A DNA stretch of 64,000 nucleotides from Halorubrum cibi (GTDB lineage Archaea > Halobacteriota > Halobacteria > Halobacteriales > Haloferacaceae). Position numbers and translations under genes: made by a program. The stretch covers positions 248,001 through 312,000 of the forward strand of contig NZ_FXTD01000001.1 of assembly GCF_900182635.1 (NCBI RefSeq). Direction: 5' to 3'. The notes under the pieces were generated by a model. It did no database searches, was not told where the DNA came from, and was given only the letters and a program-made list of their open reading frames with translations. Numbering within the stretch: the stretch's first letter is position 1; every line of letters begins with the position of its first letter. Shown piece by piece: positions 18,329 through 32,570 of this stretch.

Positions 18329-19549
18329 ATGAACACCGAGCCCGACCACTCCAACCCGTTCGAGAGCCTCCTCCGGCTTGCCGACGCCGACCTCACACCC
18401 GAAGAGCGGATCCGCCGCGCGATCGACGTCGGCCGCGAGTACCTCGACGTCGACAACGGCGTCCTCTCGTACACCGCCGAGGGGCGCTACGAGGTTATCA
18501 GCACGAACATCGACTCCGGTCCCTACGCCGAGGGCGGGATCGTCGATCTCGACGGAACGTGGTGTCGCCACGTCGTCACGGACGGCGAGATGATCGGATT
18601 CGCCGACGCCGCGGAGAGTCCGTACCGCGACGACCGCGCGCTCGGGATCACCGGGCTGAATTGTTACGTCGGCGCACCCGTCGAGATCGACGGGGAGACG
18701 TACGGGACGCTGTGTTTCTCTGACGAGGACGCGAGAGAGGAACCGATCACCGAGCGGGAGCGCGACTTCGTCTCCGTGCTCGCCGACTGGGTCGGCCACG
18801 AGCTCGAACGCGACGAGGTCGACCTGGAAGCGTTAGTTTTCGACGCTTGGGAGACCGTCCGGACCCAGAACGGCTATCCGTCAGCCGTTCCCAGTCGAGG
18901 TATGTTCACCGGCATCGTCGAAGGAACCGGGACCGTCCGGACGCGAACCGAGACGGCAGACGGCCTTCGGCTGCGGATCGGCGTCGACGGCGTCGACGGC
19001 TTCGACGACCTCGCTCACGGCCAGTCGATAAGCGTGAGCGGCGTCTGTCTGACCGTCGAGGAGCACGGGAGGGCTGCTGACTCCGGCGGCGGGGCGACCG
19101 CACCCGCGAACGGGACGGGTGCCTGGTTCGAGGTCTTCCTCGCCGCGGAGACGGTCGCGAAGACGTACCTCGGGGACCTCCGTGCCGGCGACGCGGTCAA
19201 CCTCGAGCGCGCGATGCCCGCCGACGGGCGGTTCGACGGCCACGTCGTCCAGGGACACGTCGACACGGTGGCCGAGGTTCGGGCGATCGAGCGCGTCGGC
19301 GAGGACTGGCGGTTCACCTTCTCGATCCCGGAGGGACACGGCCGCTACCTCGTCGACAAGGGGTCGGTGACGCTCGACGGGATCTCGCTCACGATCGCCG
19401 AGAAGCGCGACAAGGTCTTCGACGTGGCGATCATCCCGACGACCTACGAGTTGACGACGCTCTCGGAGAAGTCCGCCGGGGATCCGGTCCACCTGGAGGT
19501 CGACGTGATCGCGAAGTACGTCGAGAACATGCTCGACGGCTACGCGTAG
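18329..19549 (+). CDS. GAF domain fused to riboflavin synthase (possibly two genes)
   Basis: 406 residues in one open frame. Residues about 10-170 are a GAF domain (DVDNGVLSYT, WCRHVV, YVGAPVEIDGETYGTLCF), often found in haloarchaeal signalling proteins. After a short linker comes MFTGIVEGTGTV at residue 192 (base 18902), the canonical N-terminus of riboflavin synthase RibE, with both lumazine-binding halves (SGVCLTV; VTLDGISLTI) and FDGHVVQGHVD. RibE converts two dimethylribityllumazine to riboflavin. Riboflavin synthase normally starts at that Met, so this may be a genuine fusion, or two genes with a lost stop. The RibE half has a Gly/Ala-rich insert near residue 255. Confidence 0.75.
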   Translation: MNTEPDHSNPFESLLRLADADLTPEERIRRAIDVGREYLDVDNGVLSYTAEGRYEVISTNIDSGPYAEGGIVDLDGTWCRHVVTDGEMIGFADAAESPYRDDRALGITGLNCYVGAPVEIDGETYGTLCFSDEDAREEPITERERDFVSVLADWVGHELERDEVDLEALVFDAWETVRTQNGYPSAVPSRGMFTGIVEGTGTVRTRTETADGLRLRIGVDGVDGFDDLAHGQSISVSGVCLTVEEHGRAADSGGGATAPANGTGAWFEVFLAAETVAKTYLGDLRAGDAVNLERAMPADGRFDGHVVQGHVDTVAEVRAIERVGEDWRFTFSIPEGHGRYLVDKGSVTLDGISLTIAEKRDKVFDVAIIPTTYELTTLSEKSAGDPVHLEVDVIAKYVENMLDGYA

Positions 19550-20395: not shown

Positions 20396-21475
20396 TCACA
20401 GCAGGTCGTCGATCTCGTCGTTGTGGAACGCCGTCGCCGGGTCCGGCTTGGCCTCCGGCTCGTCTCGAACGGCCTGTCTGGCGCGCTCGAGGAACTCCTC
20501 GACGCGCTTCGAGCGCTCGACGCCCGCAAGCAGCACCACGGCGGCGATCCGGTCTGAGTTCATCGGGAAGTCGCCGCCGCGGACCTGCATCGATCCCGTC
20601 TCCTCTTGAAGCCACTTGCGGGCCTTCTCGGCGCCCTTGCGGGATATCCGGTCCGGGTCGCCGGCGACCGCGACGAGACCCGCGTCGGCGTCGGTGGCGC
20701 TCGGCAGCGAGAGTCCGGTCATCACCGCGCTGCGAACCGCGCTCGTCACCGTGTTGACGTTCTCTCCCGCGTCCTCGGCAGCGGGCGAGGAGGCGTAGCC
20801 GACCGCCGCCATCCCGCCGGCCCGCAGGGTGTTGATCACCTCGCTGGTGTCGACGACGGACTCGCCGACCCCCTGCGTGGCCTCGCCGGCCGCGAGCAGC
20901 AGCCCGACGCGTTTCGCCATCGACTCGTTGATCGCGGCGTACCCGCCCTCGACGCTCTCGCCCGCCGATCGCCAGGCGTCGTTGTCGAGCAGGATCGTCG
21001 CGTCGGCCTCCCGCACGATCGTCTTCAGCGACCGGCCGGCGTTCACCTGATACAGCGCGCCCTCGTCGCGCCCGGGGAGCACGCCGAGCGCGTAGATCGG
21101 CACGTCGTACACACGCGAGAGCTCGCGAACGAGCACGGGCGCGCCGCCGGAGCCCGTGCCGCCGCCGAGTCCGGCGACGACGACGACCGCCTCGATCTCC
21201 GCGGTCATCCGGGGCGCGAGCGCGTCCAACACCTCGATCGAGTCCTCGTCCATCAGCTCCGAGCCGAGTTCGTTGTCGCCGCCGACGCCGTGGCCGCTCA
21301 CGCGAGACTGGCCGATGAGTACCGTATCGAGAGGAAGCGGATCGAGGTCGGCGGCGGCGGTGTTGACGGCGAGGGCGTCACGGACCGCGCCGAACCCCAT
21401 CTCCGCGTCGAACTCGGAGAGGGCGGTCGTGAGCTTCCCGCCCGCCTGTCCGACGCCGACGAGGAGGGCCTTCAT
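20396..21475 (-). CDS. CetZ-family tubulin/FtsZ-like GTPase
   Basis: 359 residues. The start [15 protein letters not shown] is the CetZ T1 region, and the tubulin signature GGGTGSG is at 104-110. VNAGRSL and SNTVTSAV-like segments follow in the GTP-binding and T7 regions. CetZ proteins form cytoskeletal filaments that affect cell shape and motility in haloarchaea; FtsZ is the cell-division relative. The C-terminus is acidic and ends DEIDDLL. It is divergent from the coiled-coil gene at 21550 with about 75 bases between. I cannot assign it to CetZ1 or CetZ2; it is probably one of the other paralogues. Confidence 0.87.
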
Positions 21476-21519: not shown

Positions 21520-21525
21520 CTTAAG
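21520..21525 (+). promoter_or_regulatory. TATA-like box of the coiled-coil protein gene
   Basis: CTTAAG lies 25-30 bases before the ATG at 21550, the spacing expected for a leaderless haloarchaeal transcript. Confidence 0.5.
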
Positions 21526-21549
21526 TGTGAAACCGAAGCCAGCCGGGGC

Positions 21550-22050
21550 ATGGCAAGCGAGACGAACGCCGCCGGATCGACGCCCGACCGCGCCCGCATC
21601 GAGGAGCGACTCGACGCGGTCGAACGCGCGCTCACCGGAACGGACCGGCCGGTCGCCGGGGTCGCCGATCGCGCGACGGCAGACGCCGAACGCAAGGCGA
21701 TCGCCGAGCGGCTCGACGCGATCGAGACGCGGATCGAGGAGCTGGAGGCGGCGACGCAGGCCGTTCGCGGGTACGCGGGCGCGATCCGCGCGGTCAACCG
21801 GGAGGTGGAGCGCCGGGCCGACCTGGCGCTCGCGCGAGCCACCGCCGCCCGGGACGGAGACGTCCCGGCCTCCGAGGAGCCGAACGACGGCGGAGCCCTC
21901 GAGAACGCGGCGGTCGGAGAGGACGAGCTACCCGGAGACGACGCGCTCGATGCGGCGGTCCCGGAGGACGCTCGATCGCCCGGAGACGGACCGAACGGGG
22001 GATCCGAGGAGAAGCCAAATCCGCTCGAACGGCTCCGTGAGGCTCTGTAG
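21550..22050 (+). CDS. Coiled-coil protein (DUF7310-like)
   Basis: 166 residues. Residues about 10-85 are a heptad-rich coiled coil (ERLDAVERAL, ERLDAIETRIEELEAATQ), then a short basic segment, and an acidic, Gly/Pro-rich C-terminal half that ends NPLERLREAL. The ATG at 21550 follows a TATA-like box; an in-frame ATG at 21487 would overlap the promoter. I recall this family as DUF7310, found beside PilB/PilC-like genes in haloarchaea, so it may be an assembly or regulatory partner of the downstream cluster. No catalytic motif is visible. Confidence 0.68.
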   Translation: MASETNAAGSTPDRARIEERLDAVERALTGTDRPVAGVADRATADAERKAIAERLDAIETRIEELEAATQAVRGYAGAIRAVNREVERRADLALARATAARDGDVPASEEPNDGGALENAAVGEDELPGDDALDAAVPEDARSPGDGPNGGSEEKPNPLERLREAL

Positions 22051-22104
22051 GCAGCGTCGACGCGCAACCGATCGCACGGCCGCCGTTCACGGGGGCGGAC
22101 GGCG

Positions 22105-22596
22105 GTGATCCGCGTCGTCCTGACGGTCTTCCTTGCGATCGCGCTCCTCGCGGTCTCGATGCCCGCGCTCGAGGACGCCAGACGAGACACGACCGTCGAG
22201 CGACTCGAAACCGAGACGCATCGACTCGAGCGCGTCGCGGGCGGGCTGGCTGCCCACTCGGTCGCCGTCGGCGACCCGGACCTCGCGGCCCGAACGTCCC
22301 TCGTCGTGTCCGTGCCGACCGGATTCGCTGCGACCCCGATAGAGCGGATCGCGCTCGCGGAGCCGCCCCGAGCCGCCGCGATGACGGAGCGTCGCGTCCA
22401 CCGAGGGGCCGTCGTTTTAGTGTACCGACTCCGACACGGTTCGGTCCGGACGTTTCCGATCGCGCCGCCGACGGGCGCGGTCGGGGTCACTCTCCGCGAC
22501 GGACCGATCGAACTCGAACCGGGCGGCGAGACGGGCCTCGAGCTGCGGCTGGTCGACGACGGCGGACCGACGGTCCGGATCGGTCGGATCGCGTGA
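22105..22596 (+). CDS. Small pilin-like membrane protein (DUF7311-like)
   Basis: 163 residues, GTG start. One N-terminal hydrophobic helix (VLTVFLAIALLAVSMPALE, residues 4-23) is followed by a helical neck and a beta-rich C-terminal domain, the shape of a pseudopilin, although no canonical prepilin-peptidase site precedes the helix. It lies between the coiled-coil gene and the PilB-like ATPase and is 54 bases from the former. I recall such neighbours as DUF7311. Role in the pilus/secretion-like cluster is inferred from context. Confidence 0.62.
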   Translation: MIRVVLTVFLAIALLAVSMPALEDARRDTTVERLETETHRLERVAGGLAAHSVAVGDPDLAARTSLVVSVPTGFAATPIERIALAEPPRAAAMTERRVHRGAVVLVYRLRHGSVRTFPIAPPTGAVGVTLRDGPIELEPGGETGLELRLVDDGGPTVRIGRIA

Positions 22597-22625
22597 TCGG
22601 GGACACCGAACCGCCGGACGACTCC

Positions 22626-22632
22626 TTATATA
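22626..22632 (+). promoter_or_regulatory. TATA box of the PilB-like ATPase gene
   Basis: TTATATA lies 23-29 bases before the ATG at 22655. It marks an internal promoter, so the ATPase can be transcribed separately from the two genes upstream. Confidence 0.6.
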
Positions 22633-22654
22633 CGATGTCGCGGCCACGGCCGCC

Positions 22655-24523
22655 ATGAGTCTGGATCTCCTCTCGCTCCCGTCGTTCGGAACGGACGGCG
22701 AGTGCGACTGTGACGTGTCGTTCGAGCGACCGGTCGGAACGGGGGTCGACGACCGCGTCGTCCTCGCGATCGACGCGAACGCCTGCCCGGGGCGTGGCGA
22801 TCTCGCCGAGAGTCCGTCGTGTCTGGCCACCGTGATCGACGCGCTCACCGACCGCGACGCCGACGTCGTCCGAACCGAGCGCGCGGGCCGAGAACGGGCG
22901 TACGCCGGGCGGGCGGCGGCGTGTCTGCTCGCCGCGGGCCGGTTCCGCGAGCGCGTCGACTTCCACGAGACCCGCCTCGCGGAACGCGCGGTCCGTGATC
23001 CGGTCGGAGCCGCCCGTGAGGCGATCGGACGCGCGGGACCGGTCGGACGGATCGTCGCCGAGACCGGACTCGAGGAGGCCGTATCCGGGTTCGATCGGAC
23101 GGCGGACGTGCTCCGCGCGCACGTCGGGCCGACCGTGGCGGCGACGCGGATCGCGGCGGATCCCCCGTCGGGGGCGACGCTCGTCGATCGGTGGGAACTC
23201 GAGACGGGCGCGACCGTCAGGCTCTACGAGGGAACCGGCGCGCTCCGGACGTACCACCTCACTCCGCCGGTCGCGGCGTTCGACTCGGACGCGTTCGAGA
23301 CGCTCGATGCCGCGAAGAAGCGGCTACTCGCGGATCCGGCGGGCGGCGATCGGGCTCCCGGTCGAGCGGTCCGCGCGGTCGCGGACCCGGGCGATCCGGT
23401 CGACGCGATCGCGGACGCGCTCCGACGACACACCCACGGATACGGCGCGTTCGAACACGTCTTCGCCGACGACCGCGTCAGCGACGCGACGCTCTCGGCA
23501 CCGGTCGCCGAGAACCCGCTCCGCGTCGTCCTCGACGGCGAGCGCTGTCACACGAACGTCAGGCTCCCGCCGGAGGGTGCCGCCACGCTCGCATCCAGAC
23601 TCCGACGCACGAGCGGTCGGTCGTTCTCCCGTGCGGCGCCGACGCTCGACGCGACCATCGGTACCGAGTCGGGGACGGTGCGGGTGGCGGCGACGACCGC
23701 GCCCGCGAGCGACGGGCTCTCGTTCACCTTCCGCCGCGGCGACCCGGAGGCCTGGACGCTCGCGCGCCTCGTCGACGTCGGGACGCTCTCGCCCGCGGCG
23801 GCCGGACTCCTCTCGGCCGCCGTCGAGCGCGGCGTCACGGGACTCGTCGCCGGTGGACGTGGTGCCGGGAAGACGACGGCGCTCGGCTCCCTGTTGTGGG
23901 AACTCCCCGCCGACGCGAGGTCGATCCTGATAGAGGACACGCCGGAACTCCCCGCCGCCGCGCTCGCGGCCGCCGACAGGGACGTCCAGCGACTCCGCGT
24001 CGGCGACGGCGCGGAGCCGACGCCGACGGAGGCGGTGCGGACCGCGCTCCGGCTCGGGGGCGGGGCGCTCGTCGTCGGCGAGGTCCGCGGCGGCGAGGCG
24101 AAGGCGCTGTACGAGGCGATGCGGGTCGGAGCCGCCGGCGAGACGGTCCTCGGGACGATCCACGGCGAGGACCCGGCGGCGGTTCGCGAACGCGTCGTCA
24201 CGGACCTCGGCGTGACGCTCTCGTCGTTCGCGTCAACTGACCTGCTCGTGATGTTGAACGATCACCGAGTGGAAACGATCGTCGAGGTGACGGGTCACGA
24301 CGGCGAAGTGAGCTTTGACGCGCTCTTCGACCGGACGGCGGAGGGACTCGCGTCGACCGGGCGGATCGACAGGGGCGAGAGCCGTCTGGTCGGTGACCTC
24401 GCCGAAACCAGTGAATCGTACGCGACCGTCAGGGAGGCGATCGATCGACGTGCCGCGCGGATCCGCACGGCGTCGACGACCGGACGGACGGCGCCCGACC
24501 GCTACGCGGGGTGGGAACGGTGA
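22655..24523 (+). CDS. PilB/GspE-type secretion ATPase
   Basis: 622 residues. The N-terminal 230 residues are family-specific; the C-terminal half is a type II/IV secretion ATPase with Walker A GGRGAGKTTALGSL (about residues 405-418), the Asp box IEDTPELP, Walker B region GALVVGEVRGGEAKAL and the His box GTIHGEDPAAVRER. It should power assembly of a pilus-like or secretion filament at the inner face of the membrane. Its TGA overlaps the GTG of the PilC-like gene. It differs from the archaellum ATPase by its N-domain and neighbours. Confidence 0.88.
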   Translation: MSLDLLSLPSFGTDGECDCDVSFERPVGTGVDDRVVLAIDANACPGRGDLAESPSCLATVIDALTDRDADVVRTERAGRERAYAGRAAACLLAAGRFRERVDFHETRLAERAVRDPVGAAREAIGRAGPVGRIVAETGLEEAVSGFDRTADVLRAHVGPTVAATRIAADPPSGATLVDRWELETGATVRLYEGTGALRTYHLTPPVAAFDSDAFETLDAAKKRLLADPAGGDRAPGRAVRAVADPGDPVDAIADALRRHTHGYGAFEHVFADDRVSDATLSAPVAENPLRVVLDGERCHTNVRLPPEGAATLASRLRRTSGRSFSRAAPTLDATIGTESGTVRVAATTAPASDGLSFTFRRGDPEAWTLARLVDVGTLSPAAAGLLSAAVERGVTGLVAGGRGAGKTTALGSLLWELPADARSILIEDTPELPAAALAAADRDVQRLRVGDGAEPTPTEAVRTALRLGGGALVVGEVRGGEAKALYEAMRVGAAGETVLGTIHGEDPAAVRERVVTDLGVTLSSFASTDLLVMLNDHRVETIVEVTGHDGEVSFDALFDRTAEGLASTGRIDRGESRLVGDLAETSESYATVREAIDRRAARIRTASTTGRTAPDRYAGWER

Positions 24524-26448
24524 CGACACCGCGCTCGAGCGGACGCGTCGGGGGCGTCGTATCGGAGGATCGAGCGGAGTCGAGGTGGACGGGAGTCGCC
24601 GCGGACACGGCGAACGACGACGCGAACGAGGACCGGTCGACGGTCGAAGCCGCGCTGGTCAGGCTCGCCGCGATCGCGAACGGCGACGGCGCCGGGAGCG
24701 GCGGACCGACCGAAACGGGATCGGACGAGCTCCGACGAGCGATCGCGTTCCTCGAGTGGGAGTCGACGCCCGAACGGGTGATCGAGACGGGATACCGCGC
24801 CGGCGTCGGCACGGGCCTCTGTTTTGCCGTCGTCACGGTCCTCGTCGCCGGAGCCGTCCCGAGTCTGCTCGCGGGGGTCTCGAGCGGGCTCGCCGCGACC
24901 CACGCGGTACATCGAGGCCCCGTCTGGATCGCGGCGCTCCGGCGAACTCGCGCGCTCGGAGCGACACCCGGGCTCGTCGGACGCCTCGTCCTTCGGATGC
25001 GCCTCGACCCGTCGGCGGAGCGCGCGGTGCGATTCGCCGCTCGAACCGGTCGCGGGCCGCTCGCGGAGAACCTGCTTCGACACGAACACCGGAGCGTCGA
25101 CGGGCCGACGAGCGGGCTCCGCGAGTTCGCCCGCGAGTGGGGACCGTGGTTCCCGGCGATCGAACGGGCGTCGACGCTCGTCCGGACGGCGGCGGCCGCG
25201 CCGCCGGAGCGCCGCGGCCGGTGTCTCGATCGGGCGCTCGAGACGACGCTCTCGGGGACGACGGAGCGGCTGGCCGAGTTCGTCGGGGACGTTCAGGGGC
25301 CGGTCTCGGCGCTGTACGCCTTCGGCGTTCTCCTCCCGCTGGCGCTCGTGGCGCTGCTCCCGGCCGCGGCCGCCTCGGGGGCACCGATCCCGCCGTCGGT
25401 CGTCGTCGGTATCTATCTGATCGCGCTTCCCGTCGGCCTCCTCGCGGCCGCCGCGTGGCTCCTCTCGAAGCGCCCCGTCGCGTTCCCGCCGCCGACGATC
25501 GGAAGCGACCACCCCGACGTCCCCGACAGGCGATTCCACGCCGTTGCCGTCGGAGTCGCTTCCGCTGTCGTCGCCGGGATCGCGGCGGGATCGCTCGTCG
25601 CGTCGTGGGCGGCGCCGATCGGCGCGGCCGGCGTCGGAGTCGGGATGGTGCTCGTCGTCCTCGTGCGTCCGAGGCGAGCGGTGCTCTCGCGGGTCACGGC
25701 GATCGAGAGCGGGCTCCCGGACGCGATGACGATCGTCGGCGGCGACGTCGCGGAGGGCGTCTCGGTCGAGCACGCGGTCGCCAACGCCGGCGACAAGCTC
25801 GACGGCGCGACCGGCGAGGTCTTCGAACTCGCCGCACGGCGGAGTGACACCCTCCGCGTCGGCGTTCGCGAGGCCTTCTCGGGCGATGGCGGGCCGGCGG
25901 CGACGGTCCCCTCGCCGAGGGTACAGGGAACGGTCGCCCTGTTGGCGGTCGCCGCGAGGGAGGGTCGACCGGCCGGGGACGTGGTGTTGGAGCTCGCGGA
26001 CCAGCTCGAGCGGCTTCGCGAGCTGGAACGCGACGCGCGAAGACAGCTCGCGACGGTGACGGGAACGCTATCGAACACGGCGGCGGTGTTCGCCCCACTG
26101 GTCGGCGGTGCGACGGTCGCGCTCGCGACCGGCGTCGAGGCGATCGGGACCGGCGGGCTCGAGACGACCGCCGCGATGGCGAGCGATCCGCTCGCGGTCG
26201 ACGCCACCGGGTCGGTTCCGCCGACCGGGAGCGAAAGCGAGGAGGTCGGGACTGCTCTGTCGGTGCCGGTTCTCGGTCGGATCGTCGGCGTCTACGTGAT
26301 CCTTCTCGCGGGGATCCTCACCGCGCTGGGGACGGGGCTCGAACGGGGATTCGACGGAACGCTCGTCGCGTATCGGATCGGGATCGCGTTACCGACGGCG
26401 ACGACGACGTACCTCCTCGCGTTCGCCGCGGCGGAGATGCTGTTGTAG
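24520..26448 (+). CDS. PilC/GspF-type membrane platform protein
   Basis: About 642 residues. Two T2SSF-type helical domains are visible, the second around residues 410-520 (SGLPDAMTIVGGDVAEG, LADQLERLRELERDARRQL), with several transmembrane segments: a pair near 100-125, a pair near 255-310, a pair near 340-385 and a C-terminal pair ending in FAAAEMLL. It is the membrane anchor for the ATPase. The GTG at 24520 overlaps the previous stop in the form GTGA; a GTG at 24511 is an alternative. The long duplicated layout resembles haloarchaeal PilC proteins. Confidence 0.83.
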   Translation: MTTPRSSGRVGGVVSEDRAESRWTGVAADTANDDANEDRSTVEAALVRLAAIANGDGAGSGGPTETGSDELRRAIAFLEWESTPERVIETGYRAGVGTGLCFAVVTVLVAGAVPSLLAGVSSGLAATHAVHRGPVWIAALRRTRALGATPGLVGRLVLRMRLDPSAERAVRFAARTGRGPLAENLLRHEHRSVDGPTSGLREFAREWGPWFPAIERASTLVRTAAAAPPERRGRCLDRALETTLSGTTERLAEFVGDVQGPVSALYAFGVLLPLALVALLPAAAASGAPIPPSVVVGIYLIALPVGLLAAAAWLLSKRPVAFPPPTIGSDHPDVPDRRFHAVAVGVASAVVAGIAAGSLVASWAAPIGAAGVGVGMVLVVLVRPRRAVLSRVTAIESGLPDAMTIVGGDVAEGVSVEHAVANAGDKLDGATGEVFELAARRSDTLRVGVREAFSGDGGPAATVPSPRVQGTVALLAVAAREGRPAGDVVLELADQLERLRELERDARRQLATVTGTLSNTAAVFAPLVGGATVALATGVEAIGTGGLETTAAMASDPLAVDATGSVPPTGSESEEVGTALSVPVLGRIVGVYVILLAGILTALGTGLERGFDGTLVAYRIGIALPTATTTYLLAFAAAEMLL

Positions 26449-26503
26449 TTCGTTCACGACGCGGAAACGCGTTCGCGACGTGACGATCTTCCTCGGCCGA
26501 CGG

Positions 26504-26512
26504 TTTATATAT
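26504..26512 (+). promoter_or_regulatory. TATA box of the small pilin-like gene set
   Basis: TTTATATAT begins 30 bases before the ATG at 26534. It is the strongest TATA box in the cluster and separates the ATPase/platform genes from the pilin-like genes. Confidence 0.62.
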
Positions 26513-26533
26513 CATACCGAGGCCATCCGGCGC

Positions 26534-27019
26534 ATGTTCGAGATCCACCTCGACGCCGCCTACGCGTGGGTCGGCCTCGCGCTGGTGAGCGTCGTGACCG
26601 TCGGCGTGGTCGCCGCGCTCCCCGCGGCCCCGCCGCCGGACGTGAACGGAGCCGCACATACGATCGGATCGATCGCCGACGGCGAGTACGTCGCGACCGC
26701 CGAACACGGGTTGGCGGCCGACCGAATGCGGCTCACGCCGCACACGATCGAACTCGAAAACGGCGGCGGTTCCGCTCGGTCGACGTTCCGAGGACCACCC
26801 GTAACGCCGGTTCCGACGGCCGGTTCTCACGATGGCGATCCGCCACTTCGTCGAGTGTTGAACGGCGTTCCGCCGCGGACCGTGTTCGAGGATCCCGAGG
26901 CGTTCGCCGACGCAGCGGCCCGGTCGCGAGCGAGGGATCACCGGTGGCGGACCGCTCCGAAGCGACTGACCGTCCGACAGGTTCGGTACGGAGGAACCCG
27001 TGTCACGCTCGTCGGGTGA
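26534..27019 (+). CDS. Small membrane protein (DUF7283-like) of the pilus/secretion cluster
   Basis: 161 residues. The start MFEIHLDAAYAWVGLALVSV leads into one transmembrane helix (about residues 8-32) and an AAPPP turn, then a soluble domain with short beta strands. It is the first gene after the TATA box at 26504 and overlaps the next gene by 20 bases. I recall the family as DUF7283 in the same neighbourhood in other haloarchaea, but the number is from memory. It has no enzyme motif. Confidence 0.65.
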   Translation: MFEIHLDAAYAWVGLALVSVVTVGVVAALPAAPPPDVNGAAHTIGSIADGEYVATAEHGLAADRMRLTPHTIELENGGGSARSTFRGPPVTPVPTAGSHDGDPPLRRVLNGVPPRTVFEDPEAFADAAARSRARDHRWRTAPKRLTVRQVRYGGTRVTLVG

Positions 27020-27434
27020 ACGGTTCGGTGACGCGGACCGCGCAGCGGTCGAACCGCTCGTCGCGCTCGTCGCTGTACTCGCGATCGGCGTGGCCCTCGG
27101 GCTGTACACGACCGCCCTCGACGACGCGACGCCGGTGACCGAAGACCCCGCCGCGGATGCCGCTGACGCCGCGCTCGACCGGATCGAACGCGACACCACG
27201 GTCGGGGGGATCGTCCGTCCGAACCGGTTGCGTCGTCTCGAGGACGAAACGCCGGCGGTCGTCGAACTGGAGACGGAGCGGCGACGGTGGCGGGTCGGCG
27301 TGGGTGCGGCCTCTCCTGACGCCGGCGGCCGGATCGATCCCCGATCCCCCGCGGTCGCACAGCGACCGGTGACGGTGGCAGTCTCTCCCGGAGAGAACGT
27401 TCGCGGCGTGCTTCGGGTGGTGGTCCAGCAATGA
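27000..27434 (+). CDS. Pilin-like small protein (DUF7285-like)
   Basis: 144 residues, GTG start. The segment ADRAAVEPLVALVAVLAIGVALGLY looks like a pilin N-terminus: a basic residue, a conserved Glu-Pro at the plus-4/5 position, then a long hydrophobic helix. In relatives I recall RGQTEPL; here the Gly-Gln is Ala-Ala. A globular C-terminal part follows. Its stop overlaps the next ATG (ATGA). It is a candidate minor pilin or pseudopilin of the cluster. Confidence 0.66.
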   Translation: MSRSSGERFGDADRAAVEPLVALVAVLAIGVALGLYTTALDDATPVTEDPAADAADAALDRIERDTTVGGIVRPNRLRRLEDETPAVVELETERRRWRVGVGAASPDAGGRIDPRSPAVAQRPVTVAVSPGENVRGVLRVVVQQ

Positions 27435-27910
27435 CGAACACCGTTCTCGACGTGACGGTTATGCTGCTCTGTGTCTCCGCGAGCGTCGTCGCGCTCGGAA
27501 CCGTCGAAAGCGGAATCGAAACGGAAGAGTACGCCGCCGCGGACGCCGCCGACCGCCTCGCGACCGAGACCGCGACGGTGACCTACGAGATCGACGGTGG
27601 AGACCACGAGTCACGAACGGTTCACGCGACTCTCGTCGAACTGCTCGCGACGGCCGTACGGGAGCCGCCGGGGACCGACGGCGGGATCGGAGATCGATTC
27701 CGCTCCCGGGTGATCGAACGCGTTACGGACGCGCTCGGCGGACGAACTCGCATCGACGTGCGGTACGAGACGGGCGCGCCGATGCTCACGATCGGAAACG
27801 AACCGCCCGCGACTGCCGAGGTGACCGCGGCCGTCCTCACCCATCCCGGATCGGAGCGGATCGAAGGCGACGGACCGGGACGGTTTCGGATCGTCGTGAG
27901 GGCGTGGTAG
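27431..27910 (+). CDS. Pilin-like small protein (DUF7284-like)
   Basis: 159 residues. MTNTVLDVTVMLLCVSASVVALG is a single N-terminal helix with almost no cytoplasmic segment, followed by a helical neck rich in Ala/Asp and a mixed alpha-beta domain ending with a strand. It overlaps the upstream gene by four bases and abuts the next gene directly, so all four genes are one operon. No catalytic residues are recognisable. Confidence 0.66.
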   Translation: MTNTVLDVTVMLLCVSASVVALGTVESGIETEEYAAADAADRLATETATVTYEIDGGDHESRTVHATLVELLATAVREPPGTDGGIGDRFRSRVIERVTDALGGRTRIDVRYETGAPMLTIGNEPPATAEVTAAVLTHPGSERIEGDGPGRFRIVVRAW

Positions 27911-30900
27911 ATGCCCGATTCACGACGCGCTCGGTCGGTATCGCTCGCCGACGACGAGCGCGCCCGCGTCCCGTTCGCGCTGATCGGCGTGCTGCTTCTC
28001 GTGACCAGTTCGGCGTACGCGTCCGGCGTCGTCGATCAGGGGCTCGTGAGCGAGGACCGAAGCGTCGAGCGGGCCGTCGAGCGCGCCGACGCGGACGCGA
28101 CGGCGGCGCTCAGACACGCCGCACGGGAGGCGGCACACGAGGCCGCCGCGAAACCGGTCACCACGGCGTCGGAGATCGGCGGTGGCGCGGATCCCGCGTG
28201 GCGGGCCGCCGGCGGGACTCCGACGGACGCGGTACGGTCCGGCTCCGCCTTCGAGGACGCGTTCCGGATCCGAGCGGCGCTCGCCGGCGCGGAGGCGATG
28301 GACGCGGTGATCACCGAAGTCGGCGACGTCTCGGTCACGGTCGGCTTCGAGCGGGTCGATCGTCCGCTCACGCCGAGCGATCTGAAGACGCTCCGCGAGA
28401 CGGTTCGGGTGAGTGCCGCCGCGGACGGGACGGCGACTCGCGTGGTCTTCGAGGACGTGACGCTGACCGCGACGCGGGGAGGACGCACCGTCGCCGAACG
28501 GACGGAGAACCGAACCGTCGTCGTCGCCGTGCCGACGTTCGCCGCCCACGAACGGACCGAGCGGTTCGAGACGCGCCTGAATCGCGGTCCCGTCGAAGGG
28601 CCGGGGCTCGGCCGGCAGCTGACCGCCAGCATCTATCCGATCGCGTGGGCGCGAGGGTACGGCCAATACGCGCGTGCGCCGATCCAGAACGTGATCGCGA
28701 GCCGGCACGTCGAGTTATCGACGAACGCGGGGATCGTCAGGACTCAGCGGGACGTGTTCGGCACGAGCGACCCGGACGCTCGCGGCGGCGTCGCCGAAGC
28801 GACGGCGAGGACCGGACTGACCGACCTCCTCGCGCCGACGGACCTGGACGAGTCGGCGTGGAGCGATCGCGTCCTCGACGCGCCGACGCCGGATCCGAAG
28901 GCCGGAGCGGACGGGTTCGGGCCGGCGAGAAACCACACCGACCAGACGACGTCGGTGTCCGTCGGTCACGCGGCCGACGTGGCCGCCGTGTCGATCCACG
29001 ACGACCTCGGATCCGAGATGCGGAAAAGCTACCGCGTGGAGGCGTCGCTCGACGTCTCTGCTCATAGATTCGTCGACGGAGGACGGCCGCGACCGCCCCG
29101 CCCGAGCGGCGGTGCGGGCAGGTGGCAGCGCGTGGGCGTGAGCGTCGACGAGGCCACGCGCGTCGTCTCCGACGACGAGATCCCGACGGACGTCCCGTCC
29201 GGGACCGTCGAATCGGGCGAAGACGTCGACTTCGGGGCGACGAGTCGCGAGGTCCGGATCGAACGGGTCGCGACCGGTCGGTGGAAACAGGTCGTCAGGC
29301 GGAAGGTCGTCGTCGAACCGGCGGTGGTGGACGAGAACGGAACCGTCCTGGAACCGGCGAGATACGGGATGCGTGACGTGGTGATCGACCGGGAGACGAC
29401 GCGGGCGAGCGCGACGGACCGGTATCGCGTCTCGGTCGACGTGACCGGGAGATACGAGCCGCGGGATCGCGCTCCCGGCCGCCCGACCGCGACGTTCGGG
29501 GCCGGACACGGGTCCACCGGACTCGACCTCACCGGAACGCCCGCCGCCGCTCGCTCGGACCTCGGCGTCGACGACGCGAGCGCCGTCGACCGGCTCGCTC
29601 GGAGGGCGGTCGATCACGGCGACGTCGATCGGTCGACCATCGTGTTCGGCGAACGGTCGGAGCGGGCGGTGGATCGGGTCAGATCCGACCTCGACGACCT
29701 CCGAGAGGAGGTCCGTGGGATCGATTCCGAGCTGTCCATGGAGGATATGGCGGTCGGCGAGGCCGACCCGTACGGCGGGCTCGCCGGCGAGCTTCGTGAC
29801 CGCCGCCGCGACCTCGTGGACGCGCCGCGAACCTACGACGGCGCGGTCGATCGGGCGCGGATCTCCGTTCGGATCGCCTATCTCGAGGCGGTCATCGACG
29901 AGCTGGAGTCGGCGAGCGAGGACGAGGAGGTCGCCACCGACGCGTTCCTCGAACGAGTGGAGGACGCGTTCGGCGGGCCCTCGATCGGAGAGATCATCGC
30001 CAGCCGCGAGGCCGCACGCGACACGGAGGCCTACCGGATCGGCGAGGACGGCCCCGGCGGCTCCGTCGAGTTGACGCCGAACGCCTCGCCCGGGTACCTC
30101 CCACGAACCGCCGTCGACGGGGCGAGCGTCGAGGCCATCGACGGAACGACGACCCGGCCGCTCGCCGTCAGAAACCTCAACTACGTGACCGTCCCGTACG
30201 GCGACGTGGCGAGCGGCGTCGCCGATCGAGTGCTCGGAAGCGGCGACAGCATGCGGATCGGCACCGCCGGACGCGTCCTCCTCGCGGCCGACCGATCGCT
30301 CGTCGGCCGCGACGATCCGGACCTCCGTGCCGATCGGGACGAACTCGCCGATCGAGTCGAATCGGCGAGGGCGATCGTCGATCGCGAACTGGTCGCCGCC
30401 CTCGGCGAGCGGAGCACGCTGACTCGTGCCGAGCGGCGATCCGTCGTCGAGTCGGTGGCCGCAGAGTACGGTTCCGAGGGCTCACGGGCGGTCGCCATCG
30501 ACGGCGGGGAGTACGCGGATCGCGTCGCCGCGGAGACCGCGAGCGTCGAGTCGCTCTCGGACGGAGAGGAAGGAGCGCTCGCCGCGCGGCTCCGTGTCGC
30601 GCTCACGGACGCGACCGGCCGGGACGCCGTCCGGATCCCGGCGAGGTTCGTCGACGGTCCCGCAGAGACGGTGCGCGGACACGTCCGGAGCGAACTCGAG
30701 AGCGCGGCCGAAAACGAACTGCGCCGCGGCGGCGAGGCGGCCGTCGAGCGCTGGGCGGCGGACTCCGATCGAGCGGTCGCACGCTGGGTGAGACAACGCA
30801 ACCGGAGCGTCGGGGCGGGCCTTCCCGTCGCTCCCGTTCCGGGGTACTGGGTGGCGACGGTCAACGCGTGGCAGGTGGAGGCACGCGGCGAGTATCCGCG

Positions 30901-31123
30901 GTTCACGCTGTCCGGCGACGTGGGGGCGCCGGACCGACCGTTCGAGTACGTCCGCGAGGAGTCGACGGTGACCGTCGACGTCGGGGGCGAGCGGGTCCAG
31001 TTGGGGCGGACGGAGCCGGTTCGGTTCGAGACCGAGACGGTCGTCGTCGTCGCGGTTCCCGCGGGGCCGCCGGGCGTCGGCGACGTGGACGGGGTGCGGG
31101 ACGAGACGTCTCCCGGTTGGTGA
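27911..31123 (+). CDS. Large exported/anchored protein of the pilus cluster (DUF7286-like)
   Basis: 1070 residues. A single hydrophobic helix near residues 19-38 (FALIGVLLLVTSSAYASG) is followed by a very long extracellular region of alternating Ala-rich helices and beta strands, including a coiled-coil patch around 590-680. There is no second clear membrane helix and no sorting signal at the C-terminus. The ATG abuts the preceding stop. By size I recall DUF7286, always last in this haloarchaeal set. A tip adhesin or a scaffold are possibilities; neither is shown by the sequence. Confidence 0.7.
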   Translation: MPDSRRARSVSLADDERARVPFALIGVLLLVTSSAYASGVVDQGLVSEDRSVERAVERADADATAALRHAAREAAHEAAAKPVTTASEIGGGADPAWRAAGGTPTDAVRSGSAFEDAFRIRAALAGAEAMDAVITEVGDVSVTVGFERVDRPLTPSDLKTLRETVRVSAAADGTATRVVFEDVTLTATRGGRTVAERTENRTVVVAVPTFAAHERTERFETRLNRGPVEGPGLGRQLTASIYPIAWARGYGQYARAPIQNVIASRHVELSTNAGIVRTQRDVFGTSDPDARGGVAEATARTGLTDLLAPTDLDESAWSDRVLDAPTPDPKAGADGFGPARNHTDQTTSVSVGHAADVAAVSIHDDLGSEMRKSYRVEASLDVSAHRFVDGGRPRPPRPSGGAGRWQRVGVSVDEATRVVSDDEIPTDVPSGTVESGEDVDFGATSREVRIERVATGRWKQVVRRKVVVEPAVVDENGTVLEPARYGMRDVVIDRETTRASATDRYRVSVDVTGRYEPRDRAPGRPTATFGAGHGSTGLDLTGTPAAARSDLGVDDASAVDRLARRAVDHGDVDRSTIVFGERSERAVDRVRSDLDDLREEVRGIDSELSMEDMAVGEADPYGGLAGELRDRRRDLVDAPRTYDGAVDRARISVRIAYLEAVIDELESASEDEEVATDAFLERVEDAFGGPSIGEIIASREAARDTEAYRIGEDGPGGSVELTPNASPGYLPRTAVDGASVEAIDGTTTRPLAVRNLNYVTVPYGDVASGVADRVLGSGDSMRIGTAGRVLLAADRSLVGRDDPDLRADRDELADRVESARAIVDRELVAALGERSTLTRAERRSVVESVAAEYGSEGSRAVAIDGGEYADRVAAETASVESLSDGEEGALAARLRVALTDATGRDAVRIPARFVDGPAETVRGHVRSELESAAENELRRGGEAAVERWAADSDRAVARWVRQRNRSVGAGLPVAPVPGYWVATVNAWQVEARGEYPRFTLSGDVGAPDRPFEYVREESTVTVDVGGERVQLGRTEPVRFETETVVVVAVPAGPPGVGDVDGVRDETSPGW

Positions 31124-31188: not shown

Positions 31189-31671
31189 ATGTTCCACGAA
31201 GTCGTCGACGGGTCGGGCGGACCCACCTCGATCGACGGCGGAGAAACCGGCGGTGCCGAACGCGAGAGCGACGAGGACGTCCCGTCATCGGCGCTGTTGA
31301 CGGCCTTCGAGACGATGCTGGTCGAGGCCGTCGCGGAGATCGATCACGCCGCCACCGACGAAGGAGACGCCCCCGACCCGGCGACGATCGAGACGATCCG
31401 TGAGGGCGACGCCGCGGACCTGACCGTCGAGGAGGCGGCGGCGGTCCTCGCGATCGCCGGCGGTCGCGACGCCGACGCGATGGTCGCCGAGCTTCGGGAT
31501 CACCTCCTGATGGGGATGGCGACGGCGGTACTCGACGTCGACACGATCGCGGCCTCGATCGACGCCGACCTCACCGGCCAGGAGGTCCAGCAGGTCCTCG
31601 AGGGGCGCGCGGCGATGACGCTCGAGCAGCTCGCGGAGGTCATGGCGGTCGTCGAGACGCGAAAGCCATGA
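31189..31671 (+). CDS. Haloarchaeal helical protein (DUF5791-like)
   Basis: 160 residues starting MFHEVVDGSGG, then a helical, acidic protein with the segments LTVEEAAAVLAIAGG, LRDHLLMGMATAVLDVDTIA and LTGQEVQQVLEGRAAMTLEQLAE, which resemble a degenerate helix-turn-helix array. I recall this family as DUF5791. The frame is open upstream of 31189 but overlaps the large protein gene. Its stop overlaps the ATG of the SDR gene (ATGA), implying co-translation. Function unknown. Confidence 0.73.
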   Translation: MFHEVVDGSGGPTSIDGGETGGAERESDEDVPSSALLTAFETMLVEAVAEIDHAATDEGDAPDPATIETIREGDAADLTVEEAAAVLAIAGGRDADAMVAELRDHLLMGMATAVLDVDTIAASIDADLTGQEVQQVLEGRAAMTLEQLAEVMAVVETRKP

Positions 31672-32570
31672 GGGTCGTCGTCGTCGGCTGCGGCTACGTC
31701 GGGCTGGAGCTCGCGCGGGGGCTCGCCGCTCGCGATCACGACGTGACGGGCGTCCGGCGATCGGACGACGGGATCGAGGCGATCGAGGCGGTTGCCGGGG
31801 GCGTCGAGGCGGTTCGCGCGGACGCGACCGATCCCGGGTCGCTCGCCGCGCTTCCCGACGCGGACGCGGTCGTCTTCGCGGCCAGTTCGGGCGGTCGGGG
31901 GGCGGAGGCGGCCCGCGAGGTCTACGTCGACGGACTTCGGAACGTCGTCGAGGAGTACGGCGGCCGCGCCCGCGCTCCCGACCGGCTGGTGTACACGTCG
32001 TCGACCGGCGTGTACGGCGACCACGGCGGCGCGTGGGTCGACGAGTCGACGCCGATCGAGCCGACCACCGAGAAGACGAGAGTGCTCGCCGAGGCGGAGC
32101 GCGTCGCGCTCGAGGAGGCAGTCACGGTCGGGATCGACGGGACGGTCGCGCGGTTCGCGGGGCTGTACGGGCCGGACCGGTATCGACTTGAGCGATACCT
32201 CGAGGGACCGGTGACCGCCGGCTACCTCAACATGGTCCACCGCGACGACGCCGCGGGCGCGATACGGTTCCTGCTCGAGACCGGGAACGCCCGCGGCGAG
32301 CCGGTGGTCGTCGTCGACGACGAGCCGGTCGAGAAGCACGCGTTCGCCGACTGGCTCGCCGAGGAGTGCGAGGTCGACCGCCCCGAGAAGCGCTCGAAGG
32401 ACGCGCGGATCGCCGCGGGCGACCTCTCCTCGGCGGCGGAACGCCGGATCCGGACGAGCAAGCGCTGTTCCAACGAGCGGCTGCGCGGACTCGGCTACGA
32501 GTTCGCGTATCCGACGTTCCGCGAGGGCTATCGCGACGCGGTCGACGAGTTTCGTCGCCGCCGGAAGTGA
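31668..32570 (+). CDS. NAD(P)-dependent epimerase/SDR family protein (YeeZ-like)
   Basis: 300 residues. The N-terminus RVVVVGCGYVGLELARGL is a Rossmann dinucleotide-binding motif (GxGYxG), followed by ADAVVFAASS, a YTSSTGVYGD segment like the extended-SDR active-site Ser/Tyr strand, and RFAGLYGP. The usual YxxxK is not obvious (EKTRVLAE stands there), as in YeeZ-like proteins, so activity may be altered. It is co-transcribed with the DUF5791-like gene. Substrate unknown; nucleotide-sugar or related chemistry is possible. Confidence 0.78.
   Translation: MRVVVVGCGYVGLELARGLAARDHDVTGVRRSDDGIEAIEAVAGGVEAVRADATDPGSLAALPDADAVVFAASSGGRGAEAAREVYVDGLRNVVEEYGGRARAPDRLVYTSSTGVYGDHGGAWVDESTPIEPTTEKTRVLAEAERVALEEAVTVGIDGTVARFAGLYGPDRYRLERYLEGPVTAGYLNMVHRDDAAGAIRFLLETGNARGEPVVVVDDEPVEKHAFADWLAEECEVDRPEKRSKDARIAAGDLSSAAERRIRTSKRCSNERLRGLGYEFAYPTFREGYRDAVDEFRRRRK

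Follow-up and report, generated by a model that had tools for sequence, protein, structure and literature searches.

The eight consecutive plus-strand genes at positions 21550-31123 of the stretch analysed here (the window: 64,000 nucleotides of Halorubrum cibi, G000:C1:248001-312000 in contig coordinates, from a genome of 3.18 Mb) probably form a type IV filament system of haloarchaea, that of pilB2/C2, which lies beside cetZ2, would belong to archaeal subclade 4F by its features and would have an accessory role. The locus itself is already known, since the gene row is the catalogued pilB2/C2 type IV pilus regulon next to cetZ2. An initial annotation, made from the letters of the sequence, had left the set without an assigned function, whereas the relevant parts of three papers treat it, under several names, as a regulon predicted to encode a type IV pilus (PMC9856176, PMC4858521, PMC4292770), and a categorically new secretion or filament system was rejected on the ground that all three deal with a locus of this type. 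What is new relative to the published accounts found is the clean pattern of joint loss, the conserved layout with three promoters, the near-invariant, pilin-like N-terminus of DUF7286 and the disappearance of the DUF7284 leader from one family; no publications were found that use the DUF numbers. Roughly three of every four sampled Halobacteria have the system, among them the model organism Haloferax volcanii, in which all six DUF families of the row were matched, and through it a type IV filament would be linked to a protein of the tubulin family. It can be tested directly in the laboratory, since the genes of the set are defined, prepilin candidates and promoter units are named, and DUF7284 offers a natural contrast, with and without a leader.

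The ATPase and the platform protein bear out the earlier view of a type IV pilus-like machine. The top NCBIfam match of the window ATPase is the TadA family, and its solved-structure matches include CpaF of the Tad pilus and FlaI of the archaellum, the closest being 2oap, which is deposited as an archaeal type II secretion protein and which we take to be archaeal GspE. Walker A and GE[VI]R are intact in all 54 loci with PilB, and GTIH in 51 of them. In addition, the N-terminus of PilB (22655-22830) carries a four-cysteine CxC...C...C pattern, possibly a metal site, that is kept in nearly all of the 54 loci; it is missing from locus L092. The window platform protein taken alone scores 19.2 bits against Pfam T2SSF, below the cut-off of 25.2, and T2SSF is matched by 9 of 20 aligned platform orthologues (best E 4.8e-6), whose alignment has a mean column identity of 53%. 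Of 61 loci, 54 hold pilB, and these 54 also hold pilC, the two being adjacent in the common gene orders; judged by its sequence, the gene after the ATPase is the TadC/PilC-type platform. As for the divergent neighbour, its top solved-structure match is 4b45, with 498.7 bits against 328.2 bits for 4b46; the structures are listed in the relevant part of PMC9856176 as H. volcanii CetZ2 (4B45) and CetZ1 (4B46), and the neighbour is assigned to CetZ2 because 4b45 stands far above 4b46. By sequence, the row as a whole comprises a pilus-assembly type ATPase with its platform, a cytoplasmic coiled coil and five surface proteins with a single transmembrane (TM) helix, which are inherited together.

The initial annotation had proposed co-occurrence across haloarchaea as a check, and this was borne out when the six DUF families (DUF7310, DUF7311, DUF7283, DUF7285, DUF7284 and DUF7286) were sought singly in 145 Halobacteria genomes. 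DUF7286 was found in 110 genomes, DUF7283 and DUF7285 in 106 each and DUF7284 in 105, while DUF7310 exceeded its cut-off in 109 and DUF7311 was found in 106 (105 above cut-off). With only strong DUF7310 matches counted, and with the kinship of the genomes ignored, all six families were present in 104 genomes, all absent in 34 and partly present in 7. Several of these seven are decayed remnants: fragments remain in G012, G055, G063 and G124, and in G066 the first gene adjoins the tail of the last with the middle lost. Because loss and decay are seen in several lineages, the role is regarded as accessory; it likely lies at the surface, for instance in adhesion or in contact between cells, rather than in essential secretion. 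The commonest order, CetZ-10-11-B-C-83-85-84-86-5791-epimerase in DUF-number shorthand, is found in 26 of 61 loci, the others differing mostly in the flanks, where CetZ occurs in 36, DUF5791 in 44 and the epimerase in 40; chance gene order was rejected on the co-occurrence together with the conserved order. DUF7286 is nearly always the last gene of the row, and splits fall between [10-11-B-C-83] and [85-84-86]. The DUF7285-DUF7284-DUF7286 trio also occurs in other classes of the phylum (L183, L184, L185), where pilB and pilC were not found within about 10 kb upstream of it; the trio starts of L183 and L184 resemble the haloarchaeal ones, and a coiled-coil gene lies near the trio in L183. Three side observations concern the arrangement. 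In G044 and G045 (L081, L082, L190) the 85-84-86 sub-module remains beside cetZ, with DUF7310, DUF7311 and DUF7283 not found at their cut-offs in G044. In G045 the 10-11-B-C-83 sub-module lies elsewhere on the same contig. G057:C1 holds two cluster copies (846189 and 1042992), the second being of the divergent type that family f4 shows, which suggests horizontal transfer.

This distribution bears on the idea that PilB2/C2 mainly assemble PilA-type pilins encoded elsewhere, with the clustered DUF proteins as regulators or anchors of an ordinary adhesion pilus. The genome does encode five Pilin_N matches outside the cluster, Makarova et al. (PMC4858521) proposed arCOG02981 as a major pilin standing alone, and H. 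volcanii PilB3/C3 can replace PilB1/C1 (PMC6491452). However, the DUF families co-occur with one another almost perfectly and the trio exists even apart from pilB/C, and this explanation is considered quite improbable. The earlier remark that the major component is not a standard pilin stands in that no protein of the cluster matches Pilin_N, but pilin-type subunits, marked by the signal of DUF7285, do lie within it.

In 133 of 139 loci, the TM helix of DUF7285 is immediately preceded by a class III signal (R-[GA]-Q-[TV]-E-P or similar), and 124 of these 133 pass a strict FlaFind-type core. DUF7286 begins with R-[GA]-x-[VI]-P-F-A followed by a TM helix, and the motif R[GA]xxP[FL] is found in 140 of 141 loci; the nearest named relatives of the window DUF7286 are mostly Halorubrum species. 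Relatives outside Halobacteria have matching motifs at the same place (DDRGVTEP, DDRAYSTTVD, DDRARVPF). DUF7311 starts with M-I-R-[VY]-V-L-A and a TM helix, without a prepilin leader, and may be a minor-pilin-like protein. In the AlphaFold2 model of DUF7285 (predicted local distance difference test, pLDDT, 84), a TM helix at residues 19-43 is followed by two further helices and four strands, a modelled layout of helix then sheet that is pilin-like and does not amount to proof of a pilin fold. The model of DUF7286 (pLDDT 83.8, predicted template modelling score 0.69) shows a TM helix at 16-40, a helix at 51-80 and a large ectodomain of mixed structure, in which two strands of 32 residues each occur alongside helical regions. 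Profile searches with DUF7286, DUF7285 and DUF7284 returned no sequence relatives, and the lone DUF7284 profile hit (0.029), a ribosomal protein, was taken as chance.

The dedicated secretion system suggested in the initial annotation found no positive evidence. A specific form of it is pseudopilus-type secretion, in which the small subunits would act as a short piston and, in the manner of type II secretion, drive a substrate across the S-layer, perhaps DUF7286 itself. Such an arrangement would accommodate the lack of a PilA-type major pilin within the cluster, such pilins being encoded elsewhere, the large size, export and near-constant last position of DUF7286, the fact that DUF7285-DUF7284-DUF7286 travel as a sub-module, and the type II secretion annotation of 2oap, the top solved structure of the ATPase. 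Nevertheless, the near-invariant TM helix and pilin-like motif of DUF7286 suit a subunit and not a released substrate, neither an outer membrane nor, in the cluster, a secretin is present by which type II secretion would be defined, the conserved order includes no variable cargo gene, and the system has been lost repeatedly, so that pseudopilus secretion is judged unlikely.

Several observations also weigh against a pilB2/C2 filament system built from these subunits. The core of the FlaFind motif excludes arginine at +1, and because arginine occupies the presumed +1 of DUF7286, this family fails the strict core as we understand it, passing in 1 of 141 loci. Inspection of the N-termini revealed no prepilin signal in DUF7283, DUF7311 or the window DUF7284. 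The DUF7285 and DUF7286 models have no solved-structure match at E <= 0.001, and this route identified neither of the two; shared ancestry of the small families found no support, as profile comparison gave no link among them. No gene is assigned to the major pilin, and the papers found describe neither a filament nor the phenotype of a deletion nor cleavage by the peptidase for this system.

Among the subunits, DUF7284 shows a lineage-specific loss of the leader. Outside family f1 (Haloferacaceae) the leader reads R-[GA]-[VI]-S-T-V-x-D or similar and is present in 40 of 40 loci, whereas it is absent in all 21 f1 loci sampled, the window included. In the window, the start used is the first in-frame start following a stop codon. 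The start codon of the 21 loci coincides with the position at which prepilin peptidase would cut the relatives, or lies one residue from it. Of 80 named loci, 28 have the leader and 52 do not, nearly all of the latter belonging to Halorubrum and its relatives. The leaderless loci lie within L037-L056 and L103-L182, and DUF7285 and DUF7286 of the same operons retain their motifs. DUF7284 of Salinigranum (L165) keeps the leader and is a possible exception in Haloferacaceae, this genus presumably being classed near the leaderless genera. It is conceivable, though doubtful, that DUF7284 of Haloferacaceae is a "pre-matured" pilin that needs no prepilin peptidase and at most removal of the first methionine; should the leaderless protein still be built into the filament, one subunit of a type IV filament could do without leader cleavage.

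The reading of the junctions and the Pfam matches upheld the order, strand and overlaps of the eight genes as first noted. Overlaps occur at three of the seven junctions (pilB/pilC 4 nt, DUF7283/DUF7285 20 nt, DUF7285/DUF7284 4 nt), and the DUF7284 and DUF7286 genes abut without a gap. In the sampled loci, the AT fraction of an 8-base window from -32 is 0.61-0.78 before DUF7310, pilB and DUF7283, with the highest peak, 0.78, before DUF7283, compared with 0.25-0.37 before DUF7311, pilC, DUF7285, DUF7284 and DUF7286; the AT-rich peaks span about -32 to -26. TATA matches, defined as at least 7 of 8 positions of TTTAWATA and nearly always placed at -31/-30, precede DUF7283 in 35 of 58 loci, DUF7310 in 11 of 44 and pilB in 8 of 48, compared with no more than 0.4% in the control. 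The internal TATA boxes noted earlier are therefore real and beyond chance, and their spacing from the start codon would fit transcripts with little or no 5' leader. The pattern suggests three putative transcription units, DUF7310-DUF7311, pilB-pilC and DUF7283-DUF7285-DUF7284-DUF7286, so that the pilin-like genes would have a unit to themselves. It has been reported that pil-2 of Halobacterium salinarum is co-transcribed from pilB2 through the last gene (PMC4292770).

In the pilB2/C2 filament system proposed here, DUF7285, and outside Haloferacaceae also DUF7284, would be made as prepilins and cut by a single PibD-type peptidase. The genome has one such Peptidase_A24 protein, encoded away from the cluster at C6:173647-174039; the earlier observation that no prepilin peptidase is nearby holds for the cluster, but a distant location is not unusual. 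PilB and PilC would then lift the cut subunits from the membrane into a short or thin filament, into which DUF7286 may be incorporated via its pilin-like N-terminal helix, with the large ectodomain at the tip or at a base or anchor. DUF7311 and DUF7283 could act as membrane or minor-pilin partners, and positioning of the machine may fall to DUF7310 and CetZ2. As for the bulk pilin, it may be a PilA-type pilin encoded elsewhere, following Makarova et al. (PMC4858521).

Table 1. Genes and promoter elements of the pilB2/C2 locus and its flanks (window positions).
Feature	Position	Strand	Remarks
cetZ2, tubulin-like	20396..21475	-	Divergent neighbour; Pfam CetZ_C and Tubulin
TATA-like box CTTAAGTG	21520..21527	+	30 bp 5' of DUF7310; AT peak at -32 kept across loci
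DUF7310 coiled-coil protein	21550..22050	+	Pfam PF23991, 95.3 bits
DUF7311, one N-terminal TM helix	22105..22596	+	Pfam PF23993, 119.7 bits
TATA-like box CTTATATA	22625..22632	+	30 bp 5' of pilB
PilB2-type assembly ATPase, TadA/CpaF/archaeal GspE kind	22655..24523	+	Pfam T2SSE
PilC2/TadC-type membrane platform	24520..26448	+	Weak Pfam T2SSF match
TATA box TTTATATA	26504..26511	+	30 bp 5' of DUF7283
DUF7283, one N-terminal TM helix	26534..27019	+	Pfam PF23954, 176.9 bits
DUF7285, pilin-like subunit	27000..27434	+	Pfam PF23956; class III signal R-A-A-V-E-P at 27039-27056
DUF7284, pilin-like subunit	27431..27910	+	Pfam PF23955; start M-T-N-T-V-L-D
DUF7286, exported, 1070 aa	27911..31123	+	Pfam PF23957, 1038.7 bits, full length; N-terminal R-[GA]-R-[VI]-P-F-A
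DUF5791, downstream neighbour	31189..31671	+	Pfam PF19104
NAD-dependent epimerase-like neighbour	31668..32570	+	Synteny as in PMC9856176

Of the two downstream neighbours, DUF5791 is probably arCOG04674 of Brown and Duggin and the epimerase-like protein probably arCOG03095. Further upstream, at 18329-19549 (+), one open frame reads as a GAF-type domain with a riboflavin synthase-like part after it (MFTGIVEGTG...), which is a gene fusion or else a missed boundary.

Compared with the bacterial Tad pilus, the cluster is similar in that its ATPase is near CpaF and its small proteins are pilin-like with a single TM helix, but it differs in having no secretin and a platform made of one long protein. 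No subunit matched TadE, TadF or TadG; Pfam returned only DUF7283-DUF7286 and DUF7311 for them and NCBIfam nothing. No secretin was found among the conserved cluster genes, the search covering the cluster and not the whole genome.

Makarova et al. described archaeal subclade 4F as having a coiled-coil protein, an FtsZ-like neighbour and an S-layer-like protein (2016, PMC4858521). The gene row matches this subclade on predicted features, sharing the cysteine-rich ATPase N-terminus, the coiled coil, the FtsZ-like neighbour, the large surface protein and a hybrid pilin set, and DUF7310 is probably the coiled coil arCOG07564 of that study (PMC4858521). Unlike in the window cluster, the major pilin proposed for 4F is a stand-alone PilA-type gene, arCOG02981. 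H. volcanii PilB2 was assigned to 4C by Legerme and Pohlschroder (PMC6491452), a placement that conflicts with the coiled-coil and FtsZ features of 4F.

In the parts of Brown and Duggin (2023, PMC9856176) that treat these loci, pilB2/C2 regulons adjoin cetZ2 in Haloferacales and Halobacteriales, and the window resembles them in CetZ2, the epimerase and a conserved hypothetical protein in the place of DUF5791, as well as in pilB/pilC with predicted pilins and one large surface protein. The same parts use arCOGs, and relative to them the analyses of signal peptides, promoters and leader loss are specific to the present work; they propose a recent acquisition, whereas the present data equally resemble repeated loss. 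With regard to CetZ2, H. volcanii cetZ2 was expressed less under mating conditions at the majority of time points (PMC7749143), and this fall leaves a link to mating unsupported. When cetZ2 is deleted in H. volcanii, the shape of cells in early biofilms changes (PMC10606840), a result that speaks neither for nor against a link between CetZ2 and the pilus.

Another close counterpart is the pil-2 locus of H. salinarum (OE1347R-OE1332R), which comprises pilB2, pilC2, three prepilins predicted by FlaFind and a further gene (Losensky 2015, PMC4292770). The genome scan returned no named H. salinarum locus, and the gene row is very probably the equivalent of pil-2, to judge by gene count, order and the shared arCOG01818. 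Losensky et al. doubted the function of pil-2 owing to a stop codon in pilC2, and pilB2 of strain NRC-1 is interrupted by a 10-kb insertion (PMC4292770). The gene content of pil-2 fits pilB-pilC-83-85-84-86 one for one, with its pilC2 as two open reading frames separated by the internal stop, and adherent cells showed an 8.5-fold rise of its pilB2, with rpoB1 as the reference (PMC4292770).

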